The position numbers and the translations under genes were made by a program. From positions 49,713,385-49,777,384 of the forward strand of contig NC_088295.1 in assembly GCF_032854445.1 (NCBI RefSeq): a DNA stretch of 64,000 bases, given 5' to 3'. How positions within the stretch are numbered: position 1 is the stretch's first letter; the number at the start of each line of letters is the position of its first letter. Shown one piece after another: positions 1 to 27,342 of this stretch. Source of the DNA: Liolophura sinensis (Eukaryota > Mollusca > Polyplacophora > Chitonida > Chitonidae). A model generated the notes under the pieces. It was given only the letters and a program-made list of their open reading frames with translations. It was not told where the DNA came from and searched no databases.

Positions 1-155
1 GTGATAATACCAACACAGAAGAGAACACCAACCAACAAGTAAGTAGTGATGATACCAATACAGAATAGAACACCAACCAACATGTACAATGTAAGTCGTG
101 TGGATACCAACACAGAAGAAAGCAACAACCAACAAGTAAGTAGCGATGATATTAC
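1..155. repeat. Edge of a tandem array containing GTAAGT donor-like units
   Basis: Imperfect repeats of roughly 50 bases built around AACACCAACCAACAAG followed by TAAGTAG. The units at about 30-45 and 127-142 contain CAA|GTAAGTA, a near-perfect animal 5' splice site. By analogy with the other arrays in this gene, I infer that this is the tail of an array seeded at the donor of an exon left of the window. The array is cut by the window edge, so unit number and anchor are unknown. Confidence 0.5.
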
Positions 156-6600: not shown

Positions 6601-9600
6601 ATAGCTTATGTACAATCACTTTTATTGACTCGTCCTCGTCATATGAAAAATAGCTAAGTATGATGTAAAACCACAAGAATACATACCCGGGCACATGCAT
6701 TTACATTGATATCTACTGCATACTATTTCAAACGGAATGAACGTTATGAATAAAAGACTGCTTTCAAATAAATGATATTTTATAGAACTGAGCGTGAAAG
6801 TGAGAAAGTATACGCCTTGATATTTCAGCTTGAAGACGAATAATATTGATCTTCTGAATGAAACATGCTACTGTAACTTTTAATGCTGTTGTATTTAACT
6901 GTTGATTGCATTTTTTTATTCAGTTATGTATGTTTTTCTGATTTCCAGAATGTCCACGAGGCCATCCATATGTGATTGGGGATGTAAGTGTTACTCTTGT
7001 TTATAAAGTGCTTTTAAAAAAAATGTTAGAGAAGTTGTAGCTGCCATTCAACAGTGGTGTTGTCATCCTTGTGTATGCCGTATGATTACATTAAAGGTGG
7101 AAGAAGTTTTATGAGGTTGTGTGTTCAAATCCAGCTCTTTGCGACTTTGGTTGCAGCTTTGAGTTGGGAGCTTTGTCAGGTACCTGGTGAAGATCTGTGG
7201 TTTTCTCAGCACACTCCTGTTTCCTCCTTCATATAAGTGAAAAAAATGTTAAATATGGCATTCAAGAGGTAAATAAATGTATCAGATTGTATTTTTTTTT
7301 AATGTATTTTGGGATTCAGACAAATGGCTAAAGTTCAACATGTGCTGTGGAAACATTTGCTGTGGTACTGCCTGTAATTGAGAAGCAAAATGTTAGTCCT
7401 TGTCAATTTCAGGCATTTTAACCAATTTACTTGAAGAATAGTCAAATGATCAGTTCACCTCAAGATTTCTGTGAAAAGCCCAAACAAAGGAAAGTCCTTT
7501 ACCGTATGTTCATTGTGTTAATGAAATCTGTTAGGTACATGTACTTACATGTAAGGGCCTTTCCTGGGACTTCACCCTTGTTATCATAACAGCGAATCAT
7601 CTAGACATAGTGTACATCATTGCTGTTGACTTTGATATCTCTGTTTGTTTGTTCCAGTGCGGACGACCGGCGGTGCAAGATTTTTGTAGAGAACCAGGCT
7701 GTGGTTTACGGATAGGAGGAGCTAGTCACAATCTGGAACAAGGAAACACAAAAGTAGGAACTTCAGAGTAAGTTTAAACATCTGATGTGAATTGGTAAAA
7801 TACTATTCCAGATAGCGGAAGATTTGGAGGTACTGCATTTCTCCTGAAGTTTAGAATTTTTCAAGTGGTACCTTTTGCCTGATTCTGATTGACTTGTCTG
7901 CCCTGTAGGACTAATTAAGAAGTTTTTGTGAAGTTTGATTGAGGAGAGTAAGGAGAGGTATTGTAAGAGTGTGTTCAAATACTGGCATTGGGGGTGGTGG
8001 TGTCCAGTTTGGCTAAACTTTTTTGCCAATCGTCTGTAGTGATTTACATATGAAAGACCAAGAAGTCTTTTACCTCATAGCTCAATATTTCCTCAGTCAT
8101 TTGCAAGATGACAGTTGCCATCCACAGTACATGGATTGCCAATGCATTTTGTGATTTGCATATCAAAGACCTCTGTGGTAAATTAGTGCACAAACTCCCC
8201 ACAGTTTCCTTTACCATTGCAGTGATTTACAACTCCATAACATACAAAGTCATTGGTCTGCAATCCTTGTGCATACGATAATTACCTCACCTGCATGTAT
8301 TTGAGGACTAGAGTACCCATATTGTCTCTCCCCCCCCCCCCCCCCCCCAGGTTGAAAAGTACCTGGCCTAGATCTTCAACAAATTCGACCACAGACACAC
8401 ATGTAGTGTACGTTTGTGTGTGTTGGAGGAATGTTATCTGATCTGGACAGGTTATTCGTAATTTCTGTTACACAATTTCAATTCGCCCCTCTCTGAACAA
8501 TACATTTTAATCTTCAAAACTATTTGAATTATGTATATAATTGGATATAAAATTATACTTTACTGGTAGAATTGTTTTTGAACATTTAGGTTTGTGATTT
8601 TGATCATAATTGAGATGTGTTCATGTGAGGAAGAGGATGGATGAAGGTGAACATGCCTGATACAGACGTCTGAAAACTTTTACGTACAATCAGCTGGAAA
8701 ACATGACATAAAAATTCAAATTATGGTGGCTCAGTAAAATAAAGTTTCATTCATGACCAAGATGTACATTTTGTAGGATTCTAAGAGCATTAAAGATCTT
8801 AAAATTAAAATCTTAGGCATTTTGAGACATGCTTGGAAGGCAGGATAATGCCTTATTCAAATGGGATATGCTGTCTAAAGTAAGAAGACAAGAAAAGCAT
8901 TGGACTCAAATGGGGTGGTTTTGTCTTATCAAAACTGTCAGCTGACTAGCTTTAAGATTTGATGAGGACATGAAGTGCTATTTAATTGTTGTCATTAATG
9001 ATGATTGTATTAGGGTGTCATGTTGTCTGTATCTTTTTGGCATTAACATTATAGATGTATCTACAGAACTGCTTTACTTTAGAGGTTTTAAGCTTAAGGC
9101 GTTTACGTGTTTATATCTCTAGCACAGATGGCTATTGAAAGTGAGGATCTGACAGCCAAGATTTTACAGGGTTGTGCCCAGCCTTCTTGTGAAATATTGA
9201 TTCTTCATGTCTTTTTCAAGCACTATATATACAGAACTGTTTCAGTTAAAGCTTTTAAACATGAGGTACCTGTGTATCTTCCATTTGAATCTTCTCAATG
9301 TACTTACATGTATGCTAAGGTTCCATAATCTATAGTTTTTGTGTTACTCTAAACCTTTGGCTTACTTCTGGAGATAACGGTTTCTTTTAGATGCAGTGCC
9401 AGTAACTGGTCATATATGGAATTTTGTATTTTACAGCCAAGATATGACAAGGCCTGGCCATGTTTTGGGAGCCCCGGAATCACGGTACAGACATCCTGTT
9501 CCAGAAAGGACACTTAACCCAGCCAGCTGTTCCATCCTCCGTCTTCTCACCCATGTGGCTATGTACATCGGTGCTAACCACCACCCACAAGTATGTGCGA

Positions 9601-12600
9601 AATATTAATCACCACCCACATGTATGTGCCATATGTTAAACATCACCCAGATGTATGTGCCAAATGTTAATCACCACCAGCATGTATGTGCCATATGTTA
9701 AACATCACCCACATGTATGTGCCAAATGTCAATCACCGCCAACGTGTATGTGCCATATGTTAAACATCACCCAGATGTATGTGCCCAATGTTAATCACCA
9801 CCAACATGTATGTGCCAAATGTTAATCACCACCAACATGTATGTGGCAAATGTTAATCACCACCAACGTGTATGTGCCAAATGTTAATCACCACCAACAT
9901 GTATGTGCCAAATGTTAATCACCACCAACATGTATGTGGCAAATGTTAATCACCACCAACGTGTATGTGCCAAATGTTAATCACCACCAACGTGTAAGTG
10001 CCAAATACTAATCACCACCAACATGTATGTGCCAACTGTTAATCACCACCAACATGTATGTACCACATGTATGTGCCAAATGTTAATCACCACCAACATG
10101 TATGTACCACATGTATGTGCCATATGTTAAACATCACCCACATGTATGTGCCAAATATTAATCACCATCAACGTGTAAGTGCCAAATACTAATCACCACC
10201 AACATGTATGTGCCAACTGTTAATCACCACCAACATGTATGTACCACATGTATGTGCCAAATGTTAATCACCACCAACATGTATGTACCACATGTATGTG
10301 CCATATGTTAAACATCACCCACATGTATGTGCCAAATATTAATCACCATCAACGTGTAAGTGCCAAATACTAATCACCACCAACATGTATGTGCCAAATG
10401 TTAAACATCACCAACATGTATGTGCCATATGTTAAACATCACCCAGATGTATGTGCCAAATACTAATCACCACCAGCATGTATGTGCCATATGTTAAAAA
10501 TCACTCACCTGTATGTGCCAAATGTTAATCACCACCAACATATATGTGCCAAATGTTAATCACAAAGGCCACGGTGAAAAGTATCCAAATTAGCCCTCTA
10601 AATTATGTTATTTATTATCTTGGGAAGGTTTGCCCGAGGGTTGGAGGTTCATGGCTTTTGACTCTGCGTAAAGTTAATAAATGTTTTTTTGTATCAAGTT
10701 GAAGTATGTGTCATGTGAGAAAATTACATTTTATTCCCAAGTCCCTATAGATTTATTTATTTATTTGATTGGTGTTTTATGCCATACTCAAGAATATTTC
10801 GCTTGTACAACAGCGGCCAGCATTATGGTTGAAGGAACCGAGCAGAGCCCAGGGGAAGCCCAAGACCATCAGCAGGTCGGATGGAGTCTCCATAGAAACT
10901 GAGGAAAAACTGAGCAACATTTTTATTTTGTGACAAATGCAGATTTGGAATTCACCTTTTATTTATTTGATTTTATTTTTGTGATTGGTGTTTTACAACA
11001 TTCTCAAGAATATTTCACTTATACGCCGGCAGCCAGCATTATGGTGGGTTAATAACCGGGCACAGCCCAGAGGAAACCCACCACCATCCGCAGGTTGCTG
11101 ACAGACCTTCCCACCTTCGGCCAGAGAGGAAGCCAGCATGAGCTGGACTTTGAACTCACAGCGACCGCATTGGTGAGAGACTCTTGGGTCATTACACTGC
11201 GCTAACCAGGAATTATCATTTGAAACATTCTAATCAATATTCAAGAGATATAGTATAACATATCAGCATGTGCATTTGTTTTCAGGACGTGGGTAGTCTG
11301 ATTCAGTCTGGGGTGAGGACCTGCCTTGAAGACTTCCTCTGGGGGCACATGTCTGTAGATTTTGAGGTCATCCAGGCAGCTCTAGGGAAGGGATTTGACG
11401 ATGTCCTTGTACTGCTTCACCATCTACTGGACAGGATACACAATGATACATCACGTGGTAAGCTGATATTACACTGTGTGATGATACATGTACATCATGT
11501 GGTACGCTGATACATGTACATCACATGGTAAGTTGATACATGTACATCACACAGTATGCTGATACATGTACATCATGCAGTGTGCTGATACATGTACATC
11601 ATGCAGTATGCTGATATATGTACACCACATAGTATGCTGATACATGTACATCACACAGTATGCTGATACATGTACATCACTCAGTATGCTGATACATGTA
11701 CATCACACAGTATGCTGATACATGTACACCACACAGTATGCTGATACATGGTATGCTGATACATCAAACAGTATGCTGATACATGTACATCACACAGTAT
11801 GCTGATACATGTACACCACACAGTATGCTGATACATGGTATGCTGATACATCACACAGTATGCTGATACATGTACATCACACAGTAAGCTATTACATGTA
11901 CATCACACAGCATGCTGATACATGTACATCACGCGGTGTGCTGATACATGTACATCACATGGTATGCTGATACATGTACATCACACAGTATGCTGATACA
12001 TGTACATCACTCAATATGCTGATACATGTACATCACACGGTATGCTGATACATGTACATCACGCGGTGTGCTGATACATGTACATCACATGGTATGCTGA
12101 TACATGTACATCACGCGGTGTGCTGATACATGTACATCACTCAATATGCTGATACATGTACATCACACGGTATGCTGATACATGTACATCACACAGTATG
12201 CTAATACATGTACATCACATGGTATGCTGATACATGTACATCACTCAGTATGCTGATACATGTACATCACACAGTATGCTGATACATGTACATCACATGA
12301 TATACTGATACATGTACATCACTCAGTATGCTGATACATGTACATCACACAGTATGCTGATACATGTACATCACATGGTATGCTGATACATGTACATCAC
12401 ACGGTAAGCTGATACATGTACTTCACACGGCATGCTGATACATGTACACCACACAGTATGCTGATACATGGTATGCTGATGCATCACACAGTATGCTGAT
12501 ACATGTACATCACTCAGTAAGCTGATACATGTACATCACACGGTATGCTGATACATCTACACCACATGGTATGCTGATACATGTAAACCACACGATATGC

Positions 12601-15600
12601 TGATACATGTACATCACACAGTAAGCTATTACATGTACATCACACAGTATGCTGATACATGTACATCACATGGTAAGCTGATACATGTACATCACACAGC
12701 ATGCTGATACATGTACACCACATGGTATGCTGATACATGTACATCACATGGTATGCTGATACATGTACATCATACAGTATGCTGATACATGTACATCACG
12801 TGGTAAGCTGATACATGTACATCACACGGTATGCTGATACATGTACACCACATAGTATGCTGATACATGGTATGCTGATACATCACGCAGTATGCTGATA
12901 CATGTACATCACACGGTAAGCTGATACATGTACATCACACAGCATGCTGATACATGTACACCACACAGTATGCTGATACATATACATCACACAGTATGCT
13001 GATACATGTACATCACACAGTAAGCTGATACATGTACATCACACAGTATGCTGATACATGTACATCACACAGTAAGCTGATACATGTACATCACACAGCA
13101 TGCTGATACATGTACATGTACATCATACTTATGCAAATGAAATAAGAAAAAAAAAACAGGTAACCCTTAATTTCCTTGAGTGGCTTTAATATTCTGGTCG
13201 AGCATTAGACCTGGACAGTTGAGGACACGTGTTCAAATCCAGCTCTGCCAGTTTTACCCTCAGATTTTGTCAGATACCGTACATTGTGCCTGACAGGTTC
13301 CATCCATCCATCCATCCACTTGACTGTTGTTTATTACTATTTAAGTACAGTACATGTGTATATTTAAGTGTGAGGTTTTAGATTCACCTGTTTAATGGCA
13401 GAGAAATCTACCTGATTTATCATGCATTTGATGCCTGAAGGTGCTGTGTTTTTCTTGAAGATGCCATAAATGTGTCTCTAAATATAGAATGATTTACCAA
13501 AATGAAAACCTTCACTTTCTTCGGAATTTATGCACTTATGCCCTATTACATGAAACTGATCCAACAGCCTACCAAGCCCTTGTAGTTGTCATTTTTTGCT
13601 GGATCATGTTAAGTTAGTTTTGTGTTTGTAGTTGGTGGCACTCACTATAACCTGAAGGAGAAGGCTGGAAGGTCAAAGTGGGAAGAACAGTTCAACATGA
13701 CCTATGTGTCACCAGTTCTCTCTGTGAGTAGGTTTGTCCATGTCCGTTAGTAATGCAGCAAGAATTACTCTGAATCATTCCCTAGAACTCTGTAACTTTC
13801 CTGCATTCTATGGTCCTGACTTACAGCTTTGACAGTCTGAACTCTGACCCTTGAATGACATGAGGTTGTTTCTTTGAATCCAGCTTCTGCTGGTTTAGCT
13901 GAGGCTTTATGCCAGGAGATTTGTCAGGTACAAATTTTGTCTGTCCTCATAGGTATAATTTTGAGTGCTGTGAAACATACACCAATAACACCATGCAATC
14001 AAATAAATACAGAAATAAATAAATAAATAGGTTATCATTTGGTCTTGTTTTGAAAAATTTCATAACCCATGATGTTTGGCCCTATGACCTTGGGCTCTGT
14101 GACCCTGTAACCTTTGACTATGATTGAACCCATCACTAAATTTTTAAACTGTATTTATTAATCAAAAGTATAATTACTATTACTGTTTAGATTATAATTA
14201 TCCCAGAATTGCTGTATTCATCTGTTTCATCAGATAAGGCAAAAAGGTATATTGTAAGTTTTTAAAAATCTTCCCACAATCCTCTATGCTGTTGAACATC
14301 TCAATAATAGAATATATTCAGAAACCCAAGACCTCTGATTTGATTAGATTTGATTTGATTGGTGTTGTACGCCATACTCAAGAATATTTCACTTATACGC
14401 TGACGACCAGTGGTGGGAGGTAACTGGGCTGGAAACCCACCACCCCTCTGCCACAGAGGTTCCCAACCTCTGATTCAGATATGGTCCCTTGGTTTTGGAT
14501 GTTTTCATTCTTATGAATGACTGTTTTTGTGGCGTAATGATGACAGCATCTGCCTTGAAGTAAGAATATCCGGATCAAACGTGGGTCAGGTCACACCAAA
14601 GATGTTAAAAATGGTACTTGTTACTGCCTCACTTGGGGTTCAGCACTGAAAGGTTAGGACAAGGAAACAGGACTAGTTGGCCCCGTTCATTCATTCTGCT
14701 AAATGTTCCTTGGTTCTAATTAGTTCACATCACGACATGGATCAAATATACTGCCAATGCGGTGTACAGTACCAGTCATTCTTTGGATCATTTTTTCTTT
14801 CCGTTTCATCAGAGGTTGGAGGATACTGTTGCTATGCTGAATCAGAAGTTGCTGGATGATGACCGGCTTGGTGAGATTTGTCTTCTATTGAAGGTTGCTA
14901 TTACATTCATGTACATCTCACACATTTAATGTTGCCCAGACAAGCTGACCATTGCTATTAAGACCACACCATTCACAAGTTAAATAAGCATTAGGTTTTT
15001 ATTTTCATTTGGTTATAATTACCAGAATAGGCTAATATCTCTAAGAGAAAGTATTGTTTCTACCTCCCATTGCTGCTACATTTTGTTGATCGTGCAGCAT
15101 TATAGCACAGACTAAATTTTGGCCGAATGTCAACATAATGTTAGTGGGTAGGATGTTCTAGCGTTTCAGTGACACGGCACTTGGGTATGTTGGCTTTGAG
15201 ATTAAGTTTGTTACCATTGGGATATGACCAAAGTAGCGATGAAACAGGTTTTAGTATCATCAGACAAACTAGTGAGGGGTGTTTTAATGTTTATATTGCA
15301 TTTATAATGTTTACACAGGTTCCAATACCCTGATGCGAGTACTGTACGAGGCTGACACTCCGGAGGCGCGCACAGAGCTGGACAGCCTGGTGGAAGTGCC
15401 TGCCTTCTGGAGATACAGGTCCCACATCTCCCTAGAGCATCTAGAGCAGGTGTTTAACCAACAGGAGAACCAAGGCCCCATTGCACGCACCAGTGAACAG
15501 TTTGCTCTTCTACAGCTCTTCCTACAACAGGTCAGGGGCCCCGTTTCCGGCAGAGTGTGGTCAGGCTATAATTACGCTGAGTTCACACAACCAATATTAT

Positions 15601-18600
15601 GCAGTTGTAACTTACCTATTTAGAGTAGAACCCCAATGCTGGGCCTTCCAAACTGCATATGCATAGTTTATTGTACCCTGAATCCATTTTGATTGTTTAA
15701 GACATCAAAAAGGGAAGAAAAATGGTAGAATTTGGTGATCGAACATCAGAAAATGTACCCCACTACGATCGAGCCACTCTTGACATCACAGCGATACATT
15801 CGCTGTCAGGCATGCAGGCTTCTCTGTGTGCACAACACAGACCACAGGAAACAATCACTATACTGTGTTTTGATATTGAACTAATTTTGATATTATTCCA
15901 TACCCAAGCGTGCATATCTTGGGACTGCAGTAACACAATGCAGGATACTGTAAAGTTACATTCCTGGCATAGAAACGCCACAGATTGAGAAGATATGGAC
16001 CAGATATTCCATAATAAACACGCCTTTTGATTAGAGAGGACTCAATCAATTGTAGCTGTACATGTATGAGATTTGCTAAAAGGCCAAAAATTTAGACTTA
16101 TATCAAGTTGTGGGCTAGTTCCCCTCTGGTGGATTGCCTGGGGATCAGCTGTGGCAGGAATGTGGAAGAGTAAAAGTCCACTATAGGCAACCTAGCAGTG
16201 AGCTAATTCCCTGGAGGTGGATTGCTTGAGGTGCAACTGTGGAGTGGTCATGGTAGAGTAAATGAATGCTTCAGTTTTTTAGTACAGACCACGGCAGTAC
16301 ATGTATCCCTATGCTGCAGGTGCAAAGGTGAACTGTAGTGGATTGTTTGAAGTATGCTACATTTGTGCAGATGGTGAATTAATGTCATATTTCACTCAGA
16401 TTTTTTAAATTTTAAATCTATTTTGATTTTGCCAGAAGTCTGTAAGTTGATTTGATTTTTGACATCCTATCTTTTAACATAGGCCATTCAGTCATAACCA
16501 TGTGGCTTCCATCTGCGGTCAGTAACATATGAAGTTATACTGGCACTAGCTGCGGGGTGGGGGGGGGGTCTGGCCACTCACAGTTCTCCCCTCCATCACT
16601 CACTTCATATATTTACTGACAAAGATGAAGCTGTGTTTATACTTGCTGTGCATCCTGTACTGAAAGTATCATCTCAAACTAAGCAGCAGACAGTGGCATC
16701 ACTAAAATCATGGATCATGTTTTGTCATGTTTGTGTATCAGGATCATGTGCTGAGGGCAATCCAGTGCAATTTAAACTCCCTAGTCCATCAGAGACGTTC
16801 ATAATGACATCAGTAAAGTTACCATGTGTTGTCATGTTTGTGTACCAGGATCATGTGCTGAGAAGTGATCCAGCTCCATCTGAACTCCCTAGTCCATTTG
16901 CAGACATTCACAATGACATCAGTAAAGTTACCATGTTTTGTCACATTTGTGTACCAGGATCATGTGCGGAGAAGTGATCCAGCACCATCTGAACTCCCTA
17001 GTCCATTTGCAGACATTCACAATGACATCAGTAAAATTACCATGTTTTGTCACATTTGTGTACCAGGATCCTGTGCTGAGAGTGATCCACTACCATCTGA
17101 ACTCCCTAGTCCATTTGTAGACATTCACAGACATCAGTAAAGTTACCATGTTTTGTCACATTTGTGTACCAGGATCATGTGCTAAGAGTGATCCACTACC
17201 ATCTGAACTCCCTAGTCCATTTGTAGACATTCACAGACATCAGTAAAGTTACCATGTTTTGTCACATTTGTGTACCAGGATCATGTGCTAAGAGCGATCC
17301 AGTACCATCTGAACTCCCTAGTCCACCAGAAACATTCACAATGACATCAGTAAAGTTACCATGTTTTGTCACATTTGTGTACCAGGATCATGTGCTAAGA
17401 GTGATCCAGTACCATCTGAACTCCCTAGTCCACCAGAAACATTCACAGACATCAGTAAAGTTACCATGTTTTGTCACATTTGTGTATTAGGATCATGTGC
17501 TAAGAGCGATCCAGTACCATCTGAACTCCCTAGTCCACCAGAAACATTCACAATGACATCAGTAAAGTTACCATGTTTTGTCACGTTTGTGTACCAGGAT
17601 CATGTGCTGAGAGCGATCCAGTACCTGCCAAGCATCCTGAAACTGCAGAGACTGCTGATCCAGAAGTTCCAGCGTAGGATTGATGCCTCAGAGGCCAGCA
17701 GCATGCATCATATGCAGGTCTACCAAGATCTGGATGGTAAAACACTTCAGGGATTATTTGCTGTTCTTGACAGTGTGTACAATGAAATGTATTTATTAGC
17801 CTTTAATCACAGCTTTGGAGAGAGAATTTCTCTCCTAAGTCACAGAAAAGACTTAAACAAAAATTTAACACAGAGATAACTGTGCTTACCGGCAGTTTGG
17901 TTTATTTTACTTAATACTTGCATGTTTTCATCTGGGAAGTAACACAGTTCTCCATATTTATACATTGTATCATTAGTGTATTCATAAGATGGACCAAAAA
18001 GTTGGAGTAAGTGAACTTAAGTGGACTACATTACCCGTAATGTGATTAGAATCTTCAATCAGGAACATGTATAAAGTAGTCATTGCATTCACTTCTGTTT
18101 CATATCATCTTATTCATTTGTCTCTAGGTTTAATTTGTACCCTGATGACTGGTGGTCTTCATACACACAATTATCTCCAGAACTGTTCAATTTATATTTA
18201 ATTTTAACTGAAGTATATTTTTCTGAACTAATTGCTACTGTATAGCGGACCTCCATGGGTTAGCACGCATTAACCCAAAAAGATTGCTGTGAGTTAAAGT
18301 CCAACTCATACTGGCTTACTCTCTGGCTGCACATGGGAAGGTCTTCCAGAAACATGGAGATGGTCATGGGTTTCCCCCAGTTTCCTCAAACTATAAAGCT
18401 GGTCGCCATCATATAAGTGAAATATTCTTGAGTGTGGCGTAAAACACCAAACAAATAAATAAATAAATACTACTGTATATATGACCATATGTTATCCCTT
18501 TGTTAGGGTAGATAACGAACCATCCTGCTAGCATCACAAGACTTTGTTGACTCTTCCAACTTTTTGCATGTTTGCAAGGTGTTTACTCAAGTATATATTA

Positions 18601-21600
18601 CATGGGCATTATTCCAAGTAGACTGATAAAATTATCCTTTTTGTGAAGCTCTGCAGCCGTCCAACCCAACCAATGTATTATTGTCTCTAAACTCATATTA
18701 CAAGGATGTATAAATCGTACTGAAAGTTGCTTTCATGTGCAAAATGTTGAGGAATTCGAGTAGTCTTCCTTCAGATGTGGCACCAGTCTTTTCACTGTGT
18801 ACAGTCATGTATAAGTGTTGTCTGTTTTTCTCCACAGGTCACAGTCAGAGAGAGTACAAGAAACTGCTGCATGATGTGTCCCAGGCTTGGGACTTTGTCA
18901 GGGAAAACATCCCATCTTACGGTAAGCTGCAGTTTTACACAACATTTCCTCAAGCTGTACAGAATTCGAGCATTGCTTATGACCACAATAAGGCAGTATT
19001 GTTAAGTTAAGGCAAGTTAAAAAAGCAACAGATTGTAATAAAATGTTTATTTATTTTAAGTTGTTAGTAAAATTGCAGGAATTGCAGTACATTGTTGAAA
19101 ATACTAAGATGAGTTTGGAAGCACATATGCCAGTGTTCAGGGGTTGAAAATCTTATGTCTTGGTAAACAAAACAAATTTTCCGTATGTATTAAATAAAGC
19201 TGCAAGACTGTTGTGTGTTATTACTGTGTAATAGTAATGTTCAGCAGTAACAAAAAAAATAGGTAAAGAGGAGACTTTATTACATTTGTCTTTGTTGTGA
19301 GCTATGTTCATGATGAGACTTCATTGTGTTTGTCTTTGGTGTGAGTTTTGCTCATGTTGGAACTTTACTGCATTTGCCTTTGTTGTGAGTTGCACTCGTG
19401 ATGAGACTTTATTAAAAGTGTCTTGCTGTGAGTTCTGATTGTGATGAGACTTTAGTATATTTGTCTTTGGTGTGAATACTGCTCATGTTGAGACTTCATT
19501 GCATTTGTCTTTGTTGTTAGTTGTGCTTGTGATGAGACTTTATTTTGTGTGTCTTTGTTATGGGTTCTGCTCATGATTAGACTTAATTATATTTGTCTTT
19601 GTTATGATTTGTGCTCATCATGAGACTTTATTACATGTGCTTTTGCTGTGAGTTGTGCTCATGAAGATTTTTTGTTACAACTGTCTTTGGTGTGAGTTCT
19701 GCTTGTATTGTGACTTTATTACATTTGCCCTTGTTGTGAGTTGTGCTTGTGATGAGTCTTCATTACATTTGACTTTGTTGTGGGTCTGTTGTCAGGCTGT
19801 CCAAGCCCAAAAGGGCGAGTGCATGTGCCGCGGGAGTACTGTCAAGAAACAGTCAGCAGTAACTCCTGCCTGGCCATGCTTCTTCCCAGCCTGAGGGGAC
19901 AAGGGCTCTGTTCCTATGCCCTCGTTCACTTTCTGCTCATGAAACAAAACGAATTTCTACAACAGTACTATCGTATCACGGGGAAGGAGATGTCCAGGTA
20001 AGGAATATAATGGACAGTTCAGGATAAAAAATTAAAATGATCTTTATATGCTTAGAAGCTTTTGTCAACTAATAAATGTTTCTAAAATTTGAGGAAATGA
20101 TTTCGAAATTTAGCATCGTGCTATTAGTTGTCTCCCTTGTAAAACAACAAAAGAAAATTATACAAATCCTTACAACTGAATGATATGATTTATTGATTTA
20201 TTTATTTGGTTGGTGTTTTATGACATACTCGAGAATATTTCGTTTGGGGAGAAAGTGGGCCGAGCTTGGGGTAACCCACAACTGTCCGCAGGTTTCTCTG
20301 AATGATATGAAAGAGGATGTTTGTGAACAAAAAAATGTTAATAAATGCCCTGTGAGAATTATTCTGGTAAAAATAATTTCCAGATCTAGTTTGTATTGCA
20401 CTACACATATGTAAATACCTGATCCTTATTGTTAAGCCCCTACCTCACTTCCTTGCATAATTATTTTAACTCTGAAATGAAAGGGGTTGGGCAACCACCT
20501 GCATGGTGCGTGTACTTGAACTCTGACTATACTCATTTCAATAGACTGATGCTGAACTTGTGGCCTACCTCTTGTTTTCAGTGTGGACACGGTGTGCTGT
20601 TACCTTGCCAGTTCTCTGACACCAGCTCATCTGATCAGCTACGACCCAGACAGAGACATTCTGCCACTCATCCTTGCCAACTCAAACTACTCATTTGAAG
20701 TCGGCAAAGGAACACAAGTGCAGTACGACTTCATAAACTTTCAGCATCAGCTAGACAGCCGTTTTTTCCAGGGAAAACCCCTCCTCAAAGTCGAACAGGT
20801 ATCCTTTAATAATATACTTTGATCACTTTATACACAAGCGGTTGATCTGTAAACTTCTTTATGTGACATATGCCCTGACGTTGTACCGCCGCGTGGTTAG
20901 TGGGAGGTAGAATGGAACACACAACCTCATTGCTCAGCATATTGAAAGACTGTTAAAGGGAGAGCCCAGTTCAAATTACGTTTAACCAGCGAGGGACTAA
21001 TTGCGTGAAACCACCTTAGATAACGACTTCATATTTGGTGTGCAGGTTCGTATAGAGGTGAACTAGGTTCCTACCTGTATTTAAACTGGGGATGTTTCAA
21101 TCAAATTCCTGGTTTCCATGGCCACGGACTAGAAATAAAAAGTTTAAATGATGTGGACGCAGTCATTATGTTTATATATAAAAGTGAATCATAGGCAGTT
21201 TCATACTTGATCAACAGAGGCATATTTATAGTTGGTCTGTTCCACAGTGTCACCCCAGAATATGTAAAAGAATTTTTAATGGTTTTGGGGCATTGGTTCT
21301 AGGTTTTGGGGCAATAAGGTTCATGGAGGTTGTAGGTCAATTGCAGCGTTGGTAAACTGGCAGAAAATGTAGCTTGGAGTTTATGAGTTGAGGCATTTAA
21401 ACATTAGCACAGCTTTGTACAACATGATTCTTTTATATATTGTCATCCATTTTAAGATTTTGAACAGCTCTTGACTTGGTGTCGTATACTGTGCATGTGA
21501 AATAATCTGTGCTGCACGTTTCTGGAGACATAACATACATTCTGGTGACTCTTTAGAGCTACTGTCCCATATTGTGCAAAACTAATCCAACAATGGTTGT

Positions 21601-24600
21601 ACAGAAGCATGATAAAACAAAATTCTGGTGTGGTATAAATATTTTTTGATCTTTTGTAACCTTGGATGATACAAGTTTATTCTGATTCTCCATTTGTTTC
21701 TTCCAGGGCAGCCTATCATTGCCTAAAAGCTTATTATACTTAACATTTTCAATTTCTTTTCCATTAATTTCTAAATGGCGTTTTCTCTCCAACTTAGCTA
21801 TACACTGTCATGAACCAACTGTCATGCATTTTATCCTATCAAGGTTGATTGCCATGTCATTTTTGTTACACCACTGCAGTATTTTTTGGCTTTCATTTAA
21901 TCGTGCTGTCTCTACATGTTCCAATTTTTTGGCTGATGTTGACACTTCTGCAAACAGATCAGTAGTACAATTCTTAGTTGGAGATCATTAGTGAAAATAA
22001 GGAACAGTAGAGGGCCAAGTGTAGAGCCCTGGGGGACTCCGCATGTTCATTCATGTAGTTGAGATTTAATACTTCCTAAACAGATTTGTAGCCCTTTTAA
22101 CCCACAAGGTCTCCCATCAGCTGTCACTGTGAGTCCATCTCCTGCTCATGTTGGCTTCTTCTCCAGCTGTAGGTGGGAAGGTCTGTCAGCAACCTGCAGA
22201 TGATAGTGGTTTTCCCCCAGGCCCTGCCCATTTTCCACCCACCCTAATGCTGGCAGCCGTTGTATAAATATTCTGGAAGACAGCATAAAATACTAATCAA
22301 ATTAATAAATAAATAAATTCACTTATAGAGTTTCTTGAAGCTGAAATATATTACTTAGTGGCTCAATCTGACACACTTTCTGTCCCCGGGACGTTCAATG
22401 ACCTCAGGTGAACTGAGTTGATGTAAACAACCAGAGATCATTGGCGTCTTTAGCAACCAATCAATATGAGGCTTTCGAAGGAGCTCGTTTGCGCTGGGAA
22501 CAGTTGATGTCTATCAGAAAAAGGGTAATTCCCATTTCCCTGCAGTGGAAGTACATAGCAACATGGTGGACACGCCAACAAAAATCTTCAAATGGCTGTG
22601 GTTTTATGATTTTCCATTAGTTCAGCTTCAGCTCTTTCCGTGAGGACTATCTTGTTTTGTGCAGAGCATCCGTGATTGGCTGAAAGAGACACACCCCATG
22701 AAGGCGCCAGGGATAGGAAGTGTGTCAGATCCTTGTTAGTGAAGCAATATACACACGATGTGATTTTTATCAGATTGTTACTGGCTTTGTATATGTAAAA
22801 ATATTCTGAAATATTGTTAAGTACAGTTTAAAACACCAATTAAAGTAAATAAACAAATAAAATATATTACTCAACTCAACATTGGATTACACAAGCCAGC
22901 AAATTGTATACAATGACAGACAATTTTATATTTATTTATTTATTAGATTGGTGTTTTATGCCGTACTCAAGAATATTTCACTAATACGCCGGCAGCCAGC
23001 ATTATGGTGGGTGAAAACCGGGCAGAGTCCGGGGGAAACCCACGACCATCTGCTGGTTGTTGACAGACCTTCGACAATTTTATACTTTTTTAGAAGTATT
23101 TAAATAGCTGTCAGTTATAATTTTATTGATCATTATAATTGTGGAGATGTAAATTGTGTGGTTGGTCTATTTAATGCTTGTGACAGTTGGTTTCTTTGCT
23201 GTTTGACAAAGGTGGAGACCGTGATATTCCGCACAGAAGTTTCCAACGCCAGCGTTTTCAAGACTCTGCGAGAGAAAATCAAACAGGTAAGGTCTGAATA
23301 GAGATAAAGTACAGGTGTAACAAACTCCATCAGTAACATAAATAGGTTTGTGTGTGTGGATGTCATATATCTAACTGTAATGGAAGGAATCTATGTATGT
23401 ATGTACATTTGTATACCATTTTGTTTCTGTACTGCAGGTGTCACTGTGGCAGGGTGTGAAGGCACAGATCTGCAAGGAGCTGCGCTCTGTCCCCGACGTC
23501 TGCAGCGCTCTGGCTAACGTGGATGTCAGTATCAGCTTTCTGGTGTCTGCCCCACAGCACCCAGAGCTGAACCTGGAGGACTTCATGGTGAAAACCCTCA
23601 AGATGAATGAGCCGCTCTACAGCCCACAGGTCACACCCAGTTCCTCATTCCTTACTAAAACATTAGTCTGTTCAGTTCTTTAATAGAACGGATTTATAAT
23701 TTGGACTGGTGTTTTAATGCTCTGCTGAAGAATTTTTCACTTCTTTGATGGCAGACCTGATTGTAGGTTTAAAGGTTAATTGTGGACACCAGGTACATTG
23801 TACCTGAGCTTATCTCTGCAAGTAAAGCCGCAGCTAAAGGATATAGGAAAAGATACTATAAAGCGAAGAGTGTAGTTTTAAGGAAAGTGAAGAAAGATAT
23901 GCCAATAAGAAAAAAGATTCATTTTTGAGGTGTATTTTATTTTCGGAAATATTTGAAAATGATATCATCAATAAACATACTGGGAATGCGAGTCCAGCTT
24001 AGATCCCCCCATTCCATTTCACCCTCCAGTAAAGTTAAAAGTAATTTACACCCCAATGAAAAGGCTGAGAAGCTAGTTTGTACATTCATATGTTGAGCCA
24101 AGTCGTGTACTCCATATTAAGAGATAAAAACCAAGTGTTTCATATCTCCTTAAAGAAGCCCTGTGAGCTGTATTTCAGCACACCATCTCATTGGTCAATG
24201 CAGCTTGGGCACAATCCATACCTCCCTTCTGCCAGTAATTCTATACAACTTGTATGTATTTATTTAATGGGGTGTTTAACACTGTCCTCAAGTATATTTC
24301 AGTAACATAGTGGAAGTCTTGAACACGCAGCTGGAGCAACACCATGGCACAATAAACTAGCAAGAGACTCTCTTGTGTGGTCTTGCATGAAGTTCACTCC
24401 TTCAACTATAATGAGATGTAAAACATTTGGGAGAGTTTACCAGTAATTCAGTGGTTTACTTTCAGACCTTCAGTTTTTTCCCAGTAAAAAAAAAAGGCCA
24501 CTAGTAACATTTTACACAACAATCAAATAAATAAGGAAGTAAACTTGGACCTGAAACATGTAAAAGCAGTCGGCGTATGATACACAGGTGGGAAAATGGG

Positions 24601-27342
24601 AGTTTGACTCTCTTGAGTCCTGTCTGTACTTCTGACATCTTCATACAGAATGTGGATGCATATGATAATCTTGTGGGACCTGAGTGACTGAGGCAGTCAG
24701 AGTGCCAGCATGGCGCAATGACCCAGGAACCTGTCCGTTTTCCTCCAACCATAATGGTGGCCATTTTATACTTTGTGAGTGAAATATTCTTGAGAGCGAT
24801 GTAGAATACCAGTCAAATAAATAAATCAAATAAGATAATGCTATGATCAATTTTACAGAGACTGTGATGCCAACTGAGTAACCTAAATTAAATTTTCGTT
24901 GCAGGCCAAGAAGCATTGTCTGTTCCAGCATGTCCAGGCATTGTGGCTTCTGCTCTCTCTAGAGAAGATGAGACGCCTCACACATAATGGCCAGGTGAGT
25001 GGTTAACACATCATGTACAGGCGAGTGGCTGACCCATCATGGCCAGGTGAGTGGTTGACACATAATGGCCAGGTGAGTGGTTGTCACATCATGGCTAGGT
25101 GAGTGGTTGACACATCCAGGTGAGTGGTTGACACCTGGTGTCCAGGTGAGTGGTTGACACATTATGGCTAGGTGAGTGGTTGACACATCATGGCTAGGTG
25201 AGTGGTTGACACATGGTGGCCAGGTGAGTGGTTGACACATGGTGGCCAGGTGAGTGGTTGACACATCATGGCCAGGTGAGTGGTTAACACATCATGGCCA
25301 GGCCAGGTGAATGGTGTACTTTGATAGTCAGTATTTGTCATGGAATTTTCACTGTTGGTTTTATATTGTCAACACATTTATAAATACACTATGACATCAT
25401 ATAGTTCTCATTGTGATTGTCAGTTGAAATGAGCCAGTTTCAGTTGAAATGAGCCTTCAGTGGCATGGTCAAGTTAGATGTACAGTTCGTCACATTTTTG
25501 AGTCTGACAATGTTTCAGGGTGCATTGAAACTCCTGACAGGACTGTAATGGAACTGTTTGTTTTCAGGATGTTTGAAGGTCAAGAAGCAGCATTCCTGGC
25601 AGAACTGACTGTTGGCAGGTTTTGTTTTCAGGATGCATTTGAAGGTCTGGATGCAGTATTCCTGACAGAATTGACTCAAGAACAGGAGGAATTACTAAGG
25701 AAGTACCTGAAGAAGCTAAAGGGCAACAAACTGGACCTGTTTATTGAGCAGCTCCATGATTGTCTGGTTCTGAGGATCGCTGTGTCACAAGACAGGACTG
25801 CTGAGGACTTCATGGACGTGGAGCAGATGAGGTAAGACATTCTCTTAAACGCAAACATACACCAGAGATATTTGGTGTCTAAAAACACACACATATACCA
25901 GAGATATTTGGTGTTTATAAACACACACATATACCAAAGATATTTGGTGTCTAAAAACACACAGATATACCAGAGATATTTGGTGTCTATAAACACACAC
26001 ATATACCAGAGATATTTGGTGTCTATAAACACACACATATACCAGAGATATTTGGTGTCTATAAATACACACATATGCCAGAGATATTTGGTGTCTAAAA
26101 ACACACACATATACCACAGATATGTGGTGTCCATAAACACACACATATACCACAGATACATGATTTCCAGATATTTGGTGTCTATAAACACACACATGCC
26201 AGACTTTTGGTGTCTATGAACACATACATATATCAAAGTGTTAGTGTCTGTAAGCACACATACATATACCAGACATTAAGTGCATGTACATATAAACACA
26301 CACACATATACCAGACATTAAGTGGATGTACATATAAACACACACACATATACCAGACATTAAGTGCATGTACATATAAACACAAAGTAAATATTTGGTG
26401 ACAATATCATGGCAGCTGTCGGTCAACTGTATCATAAAAGAAATGGTGCTATTGACATCAGGTGGAATTAAACAGCAGTCAATAATTATAAAAAAATAAA
26501 CATTGACAACAAGCTAGCAGCTAGGCTGTGTTGTTGTGGGGTGGGGGGGGGGGAGTCTTAGTGAACTTCAGGTAAGCAACTTTAGAATGTTATATTTGAA
26601 GACTTTTTTCAACATCTACATGTATAACAATGAAGTCGAGACATCACCATCTCAGTGTTTCACCTTTTTCTTAGTGTAAAACCTTTTACATGTCTGTGGT
26701 GATGCCTAGACTTCATTATTATTATTGAACCCACCTACAACTATGAGTCGTAAGCAGTATATAATCTACATGTATATTCTTCATTATGGTGTAAACGACC
26801 AAACAGCTACAAAATAAATAAGTAAACACCTGTATGTAGCAAGTAACTGCAGAATGATATATCATTTGATTGCTTGATTGAAGCTATGCTGTCATGTTAT
26901 TTTTAGTCATCATCATACTTGATATCACAGAAGCAGTTAATCCATATTTTTGTTTTGGGACTCCTTGAGCTATATATAAGGCATCACAAGGCAACTTTGT
27001 TGACATCAAGCACAGATGAGATTTAAGGTGGACAAGTTTCACATACAAAGCCTGCAATTCTGACAGTAAACGAAAGAGAAAATCTTGATAGTCTGGTCGT
27101 AGACACGAACGCCATGGTGACTGTCACAGATATCATGTGTTCGTTTATGTTGTTTTTTCTGTAGATTGCGTGACATGTTAATGGGTCATGTGGAATCCTC
27201 TCTGTATGAGGGCATGGCTTCCACAGTCATGACACAGCCTGATCTCCACCTTCAAGACTTCCCAGAGGACATCCTCTGTAAGCAGTCTGCGGCTGTCCTC
27301 CATCAGGCCATACGTCAGGAGAGATCGTCCCCCTACCAGTGA
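607..27342 (+). CDS. RNF213-like: RNF213 (mysterin)-like E3 ubiquitin ligase, C-terminal part (21 exons)
   Basis: Exons: 607-717, 1388-1504, 2538-2588, 3765-3959, 4936-5041, 6949-6983, 7658-7767, 9437-9590, 11286-11457, 13632-13723, 14813-14870, 15319-15530, 17598-17736, 18838-18921, 19796-19997, 20582-20798, 23212-23286, 23438-23629, 24905-24994, 25632-25831, 27165-27342. All junctions are GT-AG and every phase chains, giving 929 codons plus TGA. The start is outside the window; the first acceptor could instead be at 612. The protein contains the RZ zinc finger (about residues 195-220) and then about 710 residues of C-terminal region, close to what I recall for vertebrate RNF213 after the RZ finger. 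Recognisable stretches include GHVLGAPE, LISYDPDRDILPLIL and QGKPLLKVEQ. The family is a giant AAA+ ATPase/ubiquitin ligase that acts on lipid droplets and on intracellular pathogens, with RZ-dependent transfer. AAA+ and RING must lie upstream. The introns carry junction-derived minisatellites. A second, inverted copy is at 61240-63765. Confidence 0.88.
1640..1750 (+). mobile_element. Degraded SINE tail
   Basis: Diverged 3' part of the common SINE: a CCCAGTTTCTTCCCTC block, GGTCGCCATCATATAAG, then AAATATTCTTGAATTTGGTG and TAAAACAGCAGTCAAAT. More diverged than the copy at 46500. It lies in the intron between 1504 and 2538. Confidence 0.6.
3489..3732 (+). repeat. 244-base dispersed repeat, copy 1
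   Basis: Nearly identical over its length to 5252-5495 and in the same orientation. Both start TCAATAATTTTG and end TTGATATTTATCCTCG. Copy 1 ends only about 30 bases before the acceptor of exon 3765-3959. No coding potential or terminal inverted repeat was seen; it could be a short non-autonomous element or a segmental copy. Confidence 0.8.
5252..5495 (+). repeat. 244-base dispersed repeat, copy 2
   Basis: Second copy of the unit at 3489-3732, about 1.76 kb downstream. The pair flanks exons 3765-3959 and 4936-5041. Differences are scattered single bases, so the duplication looks fairly recent. Confidence 0.8.
5567..6235. repeat. AT-rich dyad-symmetric element, candidate foldback/MITE
   Basis: The ends are inverted copies: GCCAAATTAACATTTAATAG at the left, and at the right a segment whose complement reads GCCAAATTAACATATAATCG. 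The interior is a dense series of short dyads of the type GATATCAATAAATGA and TTTATTGATATC, with two tandem copies of ATGAGCCATATCAATAA near 5710-5745. It fills most of the intron between 5041 and 6949. I could not identify a clean target-site duplication. Confidence 0.6.
6355..6485 (+). repeat. Dispersed repeat, SINE-like, copy 1
   Basis: Matches 14568-14660 over GGATCAAAC...GGGTCA, CACCAAAG/TACCAAAG, AAATGGTACTTGTTAC and GCCTCACTTGG. The GGATCAAACC piece resembles a pol III B box, so this may be a second SINE family. Only a fragment is visible. Confidence 0.5.
6949..7767 (+). other. RZ-type zinc finger coding exons
   Basis: Two exons (6949-6983 and 7658-7767) code for the signature of the RZ finger: a Cys, PRGHPYVIGDCG, then FC and a later GCG followed by IGG. 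Likely zinc and catalytic-region residues are C195, H199, C206, C215 and C220, numbered from the first visible codon. The family signature C-P-x-G-H-P-Y-x-I-G-x-C-G followed by C-x(n)-C and IGG is shared by RNF213 and ZNFX1. The long downstream tail fits RNF213 rather than ZNFX1. The finger is split by a phase-0 intron right after the aspartate before CG. Confidence 0.9.
8330..8348. repeat. Poly-C run
   Basis: Homopolymer of about 19 C in the intron between 7767 and 9437. Its length is probably unreliable in the assembly. Confidence 0.9.
9586..10565 (+). repeat. 31-base minisatellite copying the donor of exon 9437-9590
   Basis: About 30 units of type CACCAACATGTATGTGCC followed by AAATGTTAAT. 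The exon ends CACCACCCACAA|GTATGTGCGAAATATTAAT, and the units are tandem copies of precisely this junction, starting within the exon. Each unit therefore carries a GTATGT (sometimes GTAAGT, for example near 9990 and 10175) donor-like site. Higher-order blocks are visible: the stretch near 10000-10170 recurs near 10180-10350. No spacers, so it is not CRISPR. Confidence 0.9.
10748..10905 (-). mobile_element. SINE fragment, inverted
   Basis: The complement shows the usual tail: (AAAT)n preceded by CATAAAACACCAATC and then the TTGAGTATGG block and the CCATAATGCTGGCC block. The head is missing. It lies just after array 9586-10565, in the intron before exon 11286. Confidence 0.75.
10958..11213 (-). 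mobile_element. SINE, near full length, inverted
   Basis: Runs from the AT-rich tail (ATTTATTTGATTTTATTTTT) through GTGATTGGTGTTTTAC, CATTATGGTGGGT, GGTTGCTGACAGACCTTCCC, to the tRNA-like head complement (GAACTCACAGCGACCGCATT, then TGCGCTAACCAG). The complement of GAACTCACAGCGACC is the B-box-like GGTCGCTGTGAGTTC. Same family as 46500-46770. Confidence 0.8.
11440..13125 (+). repeat. 26-base minisatellite copying the donor of exon 11286-11457
   Basis: Around 60 units of about 26 bases, typically GTATGCTGATACATGTACAT followed by CACACA. The exon ends ATGATACATCACGTG|GTAAGCTGATATTAC, so the unit is the exon-intron boundary itself. Many units keep CATGGTAAGCTGATACATG, a good donor; most have GTATGC. 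Truncated units (CATGGTATGCTGATACATCA type) recur near 11745, 11835, 12470 and 12868, showing block duplications. ACATGTACAT makes each unit partly palindromic. It fills most of the 2.2 kb intron. Confidence 0.92.
14336..14480 (-). mobile_element. SINE fragment, inverted
   Basis: TTGATTGGTGTTGTACGCCA, TACTCAAGAATATTTCACTT and ATACGCTG mark the complement of the SINE 3' end. The rest is rearranged (CAGTGGTGGGAGG, AACCCACCACCC), and the head is not recognisable. Confidence 0.65.
14568..14660 (+). repeat. Dispersed repeat, SINE-like, copy 2
   Basis: Second copy of the unit at 6355-6485: CCGGATCAAACGTGGGTCAG, CACACCAAAGATG, AATGGTACTTGTTACTGCCT, CACTTGG. In the intron just before exon 14813-14870. 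Confidence 0.5.
16700..17625 (+). repeat. ~107-base minisatellite copying the acceptor of exon 17598-17736
   Basis: Nine acceptor copies (AG followed by GATCATGTGC) occur, with exon-like starts at 16742, 16849, 16958, 17067, 17173, 17279, 17386, 17491 and the real exon at 17598; spacing is 105-109 bases. Each unit has TTTGTGTACCAG|GATCATGTGC followed by about 18 more bases homologous to the exon, then intronic filler (AACTCCCTAGTCCA, CAGTAAAGTTACCATG). The continuous reading frames across this array are by-products of the repeat and are not genes. The last unit runs straight into the true exon. Confidence 0.93.
18245..18472 (+). mobile_element. SINE, near full length
   Basis: Weak tRNA-like head (GCGGACCTCCATGGGTTAGC, then GCTGTGAGTTAAAGTCCAAC), middle CATGGGAAGGTCTTCCAG, GTCATGGGTTTCCCCCAG, and tail GTGGCGTAAAACACCAAAC with (AAAT)n. 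Located in the intron between 17736 and 18838. Confidence 0.8.
19255..19795 (+). repeat. Diverged ~47-60-base tandem array abutting the acceptor of exon 19796
   Basis: About ten degenerate units of type GATGAGACTTTATTACATTT followed by GTCTTTGTTGTGAGTTGTGCTC. The last unit (CATTTGACTTTGTTGTGGGT) runs directly into CTGTTGTCAG|GCTG, the true acceptor. Units do not clearly include exon sequence, so junction derivation is only suggested here. Confidence 0.75.
20184..20300 (-). mobile_element. SINE fragment, inverted
   Basis: GATTTATTTATTTGGTTGGT, GTTTTATGACATACTCGAGA, ATATTTCG, then GGTAACCCACAACTGTCCGC and AGGTT. The centre is shortened compared with the full copy at 46500. Confidence 0.7.
21559..22045 (-). 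pseudogene. Non-LTR retrotransposon reverse transcriptase remnant
   Basis: The minus strand reads GVPQGSTLGPLLFLIFTNDL (about 22041-21982), the conserved RT motif before the catalytic region. It then continues through a fragment with LFAEVSTSAKKLE, ARLNESQKILQWCNKNDMAI and NLDRIKCM, and a further piece with HLEINGKEIENVKYNKLLG. This order matches the palm and thumb of CR1/L2/Jockey-type RT. The YxDD box is missing and there are frame breaks, so it is dead. No endonuclease or 5' part is seen. It sits antisense in the 2.4 kb intron between 20798 and 23212. Confidence 0.85.
22110..22316 (+). mobile_element. SINE, 5'-truncated
   Basis: TGTCACTGTGAGTCCATCTC at the B-box position, GGGAAGGTCTGTCAGCAACC, GTTTTCCCCCAGGCCCTGCC, CACCCTAATGCTGGCAGCCG and an (AAAT)n tail at 22300-22316. 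It lies directly beside the RT remnant, also in the intron before exon 23212. Another tail-only fragment is at about 22798-22862. Confidence 0.75.
22928..23075 (-). mobile_element. SINE 3' part, inverted
   Basis: ATTTATTTATTTATTAGATT, GGTGTTTTATGCCGTACTCA, CGCCGGCAGCCAGCATTATG, GTTGTTGACAGACCTTC. Little diverged, so comparatively young. Located in the same intron as the RT remnant. Confidence 0.8.
24660..24825 (+). mobile_element. SINE, 5'-truncated (both arms)
   Basis: CAATGACCCAGGAACCTGTC, CGTTTTCCTCCAACCATAAT, GTGAAATATTCTTGAGAGCG and a CAAATAAATAAATC tail. The counterpart in the other arm is 63838-64000 on the minus strand. It therefore predates the inverted duplication. Confidence 0.75.
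24980..25315 (+). repeat. 26-base minisatellite copying the donor of exon 24905-24994
   Basis: About 12 units of GGCCAGGTGAGTGGTTGACA followed by CATCAT. The exon ends ACACATAATGGCCAG|GTGAGTGG, and the unit near 25054-25078 repeats ACATAATGGCCAGGTGAGTG exactly. Exonic and intronic bases of the junction were thus duplicated together. Each unit carries an intact GCCAG|GTGAGT donor. The homologous array in the right arm is 63335-63680. Confidence 0.93.
25510..25690 (+). repeat. Triplicated acceptor region of exon 25632-25831
   Basis: Three imperfect copies of TTTCAGGRTG...GAAGGTC...CCTGRCAGAACTGACT begin at about 25513, 25560 and 25620; only the last is joined to the full exon. The middle copy, from 25569, has an intact TTTTCAG acceptor and a coding-like stretch (MFEGQEAAFLAELT) resembling the true exon start (DAFEGLDAVFLTELT). 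It could serve as an alternative acceptor, but the reading frame across to the main exon passes through another TTTTCAG. The same arrangement is in the right arm near 63000-63125. Confidence 0.8.
25850..26235 (+). repeat. 36-base minisatellite just after the donor at 25831
   Basis: About ten units of CCAGAGATATTTGGTGTCTA followed by TAAACACACACATATA, starting some 20 bases after GTAAGACATT. Because 36 is a multiple of 3 and stops are absent, open frames appear on both strands; these are artefacts. Unlike the other arrays, the unit does not contain the donor itself. A second array of about 44-base units (CCAGACATTAAGTGCATGTA type, three units) follows at 26262-26390. Confidence 0.9.

Follow-up and report, generated by a model that had tools for sequence, protein, structure and literature searches.

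What makes the tandem repeats of an intron begin or end at a splice site? The question is raised by a 64,000-base stretch of DNA, here called the window (C1:49713385-49777384, in a genome of 609 Mb in 632 contigs), whose forward strand carries the 3' portion of an RNF213-like gene. A first-pass annotation had described minisatellites there whose repeated unit contains the exon-intron boundary, and had offered three causes: a mutational process linked to splicing or R-loops, template switching at AG|GT, or simple tolerance of duplicate splice sites.

Tandem arrays at splice junctions of an RNF213-like gene

With homology and splice consensus as the basis, 13 exons were modeled between positions 9437 and 25831 (+), with consistent phase and no stop codon. 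The spliced product of 628 amino acids matched RNF213 chains of the PDB (E 4.7e-76, query residues 2-622), in agreement with the name first given to the gene. Beyond the 5' end of the window, exon edges were placed by inspection of the sequence and lack a database match. Arrays were called with TRF, and the exonic content of their units was assessed with a 22-base junction word (12 exonic and 10 intronic bases) searched in window positions 9000-26500 at a match of at least 19/22. Counting the junction itself, the word was found at 10 places for donor 9590, 13 for donor 11457, 9 for donor 24994, and 9 for acceptor 17598. TRF starts the array at donor 11457 13 bases into the intron, its exonic content being visible by word recurrence only, and this array was scored as touching, not spanning, in the statistical tests. 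The junction word of acceptor 25632 did not recur elsewhere in positions 9000-26500 at this threshold, and the duplication there drew no TRF call; alignment identified a single extra copy, in which 48 of 54 aligned bases are identical, with a 2-base gap, and which scored 71 versus a maximum of 18 among 300 other intron stretches. All five junction-spanning duplications of the first-pass annotation are therefore present in the sequence, as four arrays and one extra copy (Table 1). The two further arrays said to abut splice sites (19796 and 25831) also lie beside them, with TRF ends 13 and 14 bases short; the latter array (25846-26384) consists of several rows merged. Arrays sit within introns, between exons of consistent phase, and their units carry exonic bases of the neighboring exon, which argues, as had been proposed, that the arrays began as a duplication across the junction.

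Table 1. Positions of exons, tandem arrays and junction copies in the window
Feature	Position	Strand	Basis
End of donor-spanning array, 45-base unit; its exon ends 184 bases 5' of the window	1..151	+	TRF
Exon, donor 9590/9591	9437..9590	+	Phase-consistent splice model, PDB match
Donor-spanning array, 31-base unit, ~32 copies, 16 exonic bases	9575..10563	+	TRF, word recurrence
Exon, donor 11457/11458	11286..11457	+	Splice model
Donor-side array, 26-base unit, ~62 copies	11446..13117	+	TRF (11471-13117), exonic end by word recurrence
Acceptor-spanning array, 107-base unit, 8.5 copies, 28 exonic bases	16716..17625	+	TRF, word recurrence
Exon 3' of acceptor-spanning array	17598..17736	+	Splice model
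Array, 44-base unit, ending 13 bases short of exon at 19796	19271..19782	+	TRF, splice model
Exon	19796..19997	+	Splice model
Exon, donor 24994/24995	24905..24994	+	Splice model
Donor-spanning array, 26-base unit, 12.6 copies, 15 exonic bases	24980..25302	+	TRF, word recurrence
Single extra copy of acceptor junction 25632	25557..25610	+	Alignment
Exon, acceptor side duplicated once upstream	25632..25831	+	Splice model, junction-copy alignment
Array, 36/42-base units, starting 14 bases past exon end 25831	25846..26384	+	TRF, splice model
Inverted-copy arrays matching 25846-26384	62237..62788	-	TRF, self-comparison
Inverted-copy array matching 24980-25302	63342..63690	-	TRF, self-comparison

Upstream of the window, the same gene holds three further junction-spanning arrays, each at a donor: one from C1:49692289 (55 copies of a 51-base unit, 38 exonic bases), one at C1:49696300 (2.3 copies of a 99-base unit, 19 exonic bases), and one that runs from -206 to 151 relative to the window (45-base unit, 23 exonic bases). 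Another upstream array ends 19 bases short of an acceptor, and arrays without junction contact lie at 15466-17673, 2568-2662, and 19180-19328 in joined gene coordinates.

A second copy of the gene and its flank lies inverted and tail to tail with the first (window 24670-64000 and C1:49777385-49797384), and may be a true inverted duplication or the product of joined haplotypes. Identity is 92-99% in the main matched segments; the 13 compared exons are 96-100% identical and free of stops, and 16 of 628 amino acids differ. Arrays match in both gene copies and are therefore older than the gene duplication. Judged between these two gene copies, not between alleles of one locus, copy number is 62 versus 8.8 at donor 11457, 8.5 versus 7.2 at acceptor 17598, and 12.6 versus 13.6 at donor 24994, and two array-bearing introns differ by more than 1 kb (1695 versus 2941 and 2174 versus 828 bases). 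Such differences in copy number and intron length are ordinary minisatellite turnover. An interspersed repeat is present in the window as well, with copies in either orientation at 10960-11204, 22929-23079, and 46531-46771 that are 86-89% similar; it may belong to a mollusc SINE family.

Junction-spanning arrays in control genes

The count of arrays against junctions that the first-pass annotation had proposed was run on 28 gene stretches of the same genome (231,926 bases): 12 with myosin heads (145,011 bases) and 16 with kinesins (86,915 bases). Stretches were picked by clusters of detected exons, before sequence inspection and with repeats disregarded. For kinesin, 16 of the 20 clusters with at least four detected exons were taken, longer ones being cut or omitted; for myosin, 12 of the clusters were taken, several of them cut. 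Myosin edges came from homology and splice consensus and kinesin edges from homology hits, and those near candidate arrays, plus 12 further ones, were read by eye.

Arrays with a TRF period of at least 14 and a score of at least 120 numbered 67 (44 myosin and 23 kinesin), of which 66 were tested; the first array of stretch L025 was left out, its unit carrying a kinesin exon end whose exon is outside the stretch. Arrays were merged by a fixed 20-base rule, under which L038 965-1273 and 1296-1541, which look like one array, count as two. One exon (m3 4268) was recognized during array reading; its array was scored as spanning and its intron included in the null. Scored likewise was the array at L024 6399-6701, which starts inside an exon and holds 45 exonic bases. 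Two kinesin arrays (L025 6378-7620 and L027 2437-3202) had been called spanning or touching from homology-hit distance and were ruled out by reading the sequence. Junction units were recognizable by eye in unrelated genes, among them a myosin acceptor (NPLLEAFGNAKT), a myosin donor (KNYHYIKQGGDHK), and, outside the test, the kinesin donor at YSVSMSYLE. Array density in the myosin sample is about one per 3.3 kb (44 in 145 kb).

The first-pass annotation had taken placement anywhere within introns as its comparison; the null model used here lets a duplication start anywhere in an intron or across either junction, sparing coding sequence. A unit of u bases has about u-11 start positions per junction, leaving at least 6 exonic and at least 6 intronic bases, and intron length is taken after array removal. 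For the 66 control arrays, the chance of spanning under this model ranged from 0.2% to 95% (median, 4.5%), with the top values in stretches truncated where the retrieved sequence ended. An earlier, rough expectation from total intron length and junction number had suggested a myosin excess, which shrank under the per-intron null.

In the control genes, 11 of 66 arrays (~17%; 7 donors and 4 acceptors) span an exon edge. The null predicts 10.23 when TRF periods are used (P 0.45) and 8.30 when base periods are used (P 0.16); for arrays that span an edge or lie within 20 bases of one, 13 were observed and 14.88 expected. Taken alone, myosin gave 8/44 versus 4.91 expected (P 0.07) and kinesin 3/22 versus 3.39 (P 0.72). 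When arrays truncated at stretch ends are excluded, the control figures are 9/56 versus 5.42 (P 0.073), and those for myosin 7/38 versus 3.02 (P 0.017). The control genes may thus hold a modest excess, but the data do not require one. The first-pass premise that ordinary intronic satellites lack a reason to begin at splice sites this often is not supported: given array density and short introns, uniform seeding by itself predicts 8.3-10.2 of the 66. With introns this short compared with the repeat unit, a considerable fraction of arrays holds an exon edge without any splice-linked process.

The RNF213-like gene, picked for its pattern, departs from this rate, with 6 of 13 arrays spanning versus 1.43 expected (P 0.001); when arrays that lie no more than 20 bases from a junction are added, the count is 10 of 13 versus 2.47 expected (P 6e-6). 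In the stretch originally reported, all six arrays touch a junction (P 2.2e-5); among the arrays whose junctions the first-pass annotation had not seen, 3 of 7 span one versus 0.90 expected (P 0.042). These tests placed the exon boundary at the array with the 51-base unit at 328 instead of 327, with negligible effect. Compared with the controls by Fisher's test, the whole gene differs (6/13 versus 11/66, P 0.028), and the unseen part, at 3/7, gives P 0.12. With very many arrays per genome, such a run should arise somewhere by chance; given a count above expectation, the gene may also have a bias of its own.

Tandem arrays as a whole (TRF score of at least 50) make up 18.9% of the 337,311 bases formed by all fetched DNA and the window, a high share. 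At L005 5663-6971, a myosin gene has three adjacent versions of the exon around NPVLEAYGNAKT, presumably mutually exclusive exons of muscle myosin. At L019 3749-4301, the myosin exon LRYTGVLETTRIRRKGYPTRL is present in 4.5 tandem copies of a 124-base unit that continue until the stretch ends; exon-sized repeats therefore occur too.

Origin of the arrays

Taking these results together, we consider it probable that the arrays are minisatellites of the kind named mirages in lancelets, produced by neutral duplication across a junction that is tolerated and followed by array turnover. Short tandem duplications (units of ~25-125 bases here) would arise at arbitrary positions of a gene. Those within an exon would usually be lost to selection, and those within an intron or over a junction would survive, the exon and its nearest splice site being unharmed. 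The units do hold exonic bases, and they occur in unrelated genes near the predicted rate. Once present, the duplicated piece would expand and turn over as any minisatellite does; turnover is observed between the two gene copies. The exon-side site would be maintained by selection, with the copies passively carried, and array copies of donors are indeed weaker on average. We infer the duplication mechanism, its neutrality, and normal splicing. To account for the arrays, duplication with tolerance and later turnover suffices. Among the causes first suggested, tolerance of neutral duplicate splice sites is the best supported.

Splice-site quality was compared in nine usable donor arrays, leaving out the m3 junction (one base off) and L025 (anchored on a copy other than that of the exon itself). 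In 9 of 9 arrays, the mean score of the array copies falls below that of the exon-side donor, and GT is intact in 153 of the 165 copies found. These were picked up at an identity of at least 60% with the junction, a search that favors intact ones. These scores fit selection on the exon-side donor and give no sign of the copies being purged.

The strongest alternative, which we nonetheless regard as unlikely, is that a process linked to splicing or transcription, such as R-loops or template switching at AG|GT, directs seeding toward splice junctions in some genes at least. The count in the RNF213-like gene, including its unseen part, and the myosin count without cut arrays speak for such a bias. 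The 66 control arrays, however, fit the neutral null, as does the kinesin set, and acceptors are affected as well as donors: among the spanning arrays of the RNF213-like and control genes combined, 12 are at donors and 5 of 17 at acceptors (P 0.14). The control genes thus do not call for a splice-linked process, and its necessity is not supported outside the RNF213-like gene.

Word counts across the genome bear on the same alternative. Triples of the donor octamer AGGTRAGT number 1790 and those of its reversal 929, with 50,973 and 47,894 single occurrences, respectively; the resulting ~1.8-fold enrichment was set aside, as the scrambled word GATGRTGA has 2200 triples, more than the donor octamer, and its reverse 982, so that control words scatter as widely. 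Normalized to local singles outside arrays, the donor ratio is 59.7, the lowest of four (others, 66.4, 81.5, and 109.1), although the local singles behind these ratios number 30, 14, 27, and 9, and the ratios are rough. Three other results speak in favor of biased seeding. The acceptor word TTTYCAGG gave 682 triples versus 144 reversed, or 17.9 versus 8.5 per local single (about twofold). A hand count of distinct arrays in the first 6.95 Mb of C1, among the matches listed, found 18 for the donor word, 6 for the reversed, and 8 for the scrambled word. In control-gene DNA, 20% of which is arrays, 28 of 50 donor octamers lie inside arrays versus 2/16, 1/16, and 0/7 for the control words, many copies coming from few arrays; AGGTRAGT accounts for 7 of 86 donors. 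A donor-word excess in arrays is also predicted by the neutral null, because an array that covers a genuine donor has the word in every unit, and we roughly estimate the excess so produced as two- to threefold in distinct arrays. We do not count the octamer triples as evidence of enrichment.

A bolder form of this alternative, which we hold to be speculative and improbable, is that duplications in the RNF213-like gene, and perhaps in a class of genes, start preferentially at splice junctions. Co-transcriptional or splicing-coupled events would then be a source of minisatellites, and very many junction-seeded arrays genome-wide would provide a stock from which new introns and alternative splice sites could form.

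We find it very hard to credit that the arrays are selected, with repeated splice sites aiding or diversifying the splicing of the RNF213-like gene. The retention of GT in most downstream donor copies is compatible with such a role, and downstream repeat units of human IFI6 (6-16) serve as splice donors according to an excerpted source (PMC4526556). Several units, however, are not multiples of three (31, 26, 107, and 26 bases), the donor copies are on average weaker than the exon-side donor, like structures are present in myosin and kinesin genes, and copy number at one donor differs several-fold between the gene copies. Least credible of all is an assembly artefact, with repeats wrongly compressed, lengthened, or positioned at the ends of exons; long arrays do pose difficulties for assembly and the window also holds an inverted gene copy, but matching arrays stand in both gene copies, their units differ among themselves, and 11 junction-spanning cases occur in unrelated genes. 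Neutral duplication across junctions thus remains our preferred reading.

Comparison with known systems

The host of these arrays is probably a mollusc. The best PDB matches of its muscle myosin were 3i5f (630 bits), the group 1dfk, 1dfl, 1b7t, 1kk7, and 1qvi (594), and human Myosin-7 chains (587); we take 3i5f to be a squid myosin and the 1dfk/1dfl/1b7t group to be from scallop.

Introns that derive from tandem arrays are reportedly treated in Zhuo 2007. Intron gain by tandem duplication is the subject of Lehmann 2010 (PMC2891723), as far as its excerpts go, and of the potato RdRp case (PMC4974935, likewise in excerpt). As in potato RdRp, a tandem duplication here crosses an intron/exon boundary; the excerpt describes a new intron arising, whereas the present repeats sit inside an intron and give no evidence of intron gain (PMC4974935). 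Dual-specific splice sites of polyubiquitin genes, in the portion of the source available, likewise repeat AG|GT in a tandem array, but there coding repeats are spliced at unit borders and here the copies are intronic (PMC10809524).

Minisatellite units that carry donor sites at an exon end are also a feature of human IFI6. The original account of that minisatellite and its splice donors is said to be Turri 1995. According to an excerpted source, downstream units of the IFI6 (also known as 6-16 or G1P3) minisatellite are used as splice donors (PMC4526556). That case concerns one gene, with alternative use of the units reported; the present arrays lie in several unrelated genes.

The closest precedent is that of the lancelet mirages, tandem repeats over intron/exon boundaries described in excerpts for the globin genes BflGb6 and BflGb9 and for Adh3 (PMC3087553), and further for TnC and PGBD5 (PMC3902484). 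The excerpted sources describe repeats at both intron boundaries that are unstable in length and leave splicing undisturbed, and suggest a route to intron gain (PMC3087553, PMC3902484). Here, too, units cross the boundary at the 5' as well as the 3' end of introns (12 donor and 5 acceptor cases). According to the same excerpts, lancelet units measure ~10-160 bases and their copy number varies between haplotypes; here it varies between gene copies. The three to six units given for BflGb6 compare with up to ~62 copies at one donor in the window. Undisturbed splicing is reported for the lancelet genes and presumed here. Several cases in one gene, and a frequency set against a neutral null, also set the present case apart from the excerpted lancelet accounts, as does the probable mollusc host.

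Among the matches listed in the open-access literature, no report of boundary-spanning minisatellites beyond lancelets and human IFI6 was found, and we claim no priority. The pattern has a name already; what is new is probably another lineage, a measured frequency (~17%), and an explicit null, which supplies the missing number of junction-spanning arrays that neutral duplication yields. A genome of this kind offers many natural test cases of how the spliceosome selects between nearly identical adjacent sites and of whether duplication-based intron gain occurs. A curiosity reported in a few lancelet genes thereby reaches what is likely to be another, distantly related animal lineage, in which it is common (11 of the 66 arrays tested in the sampled genes).
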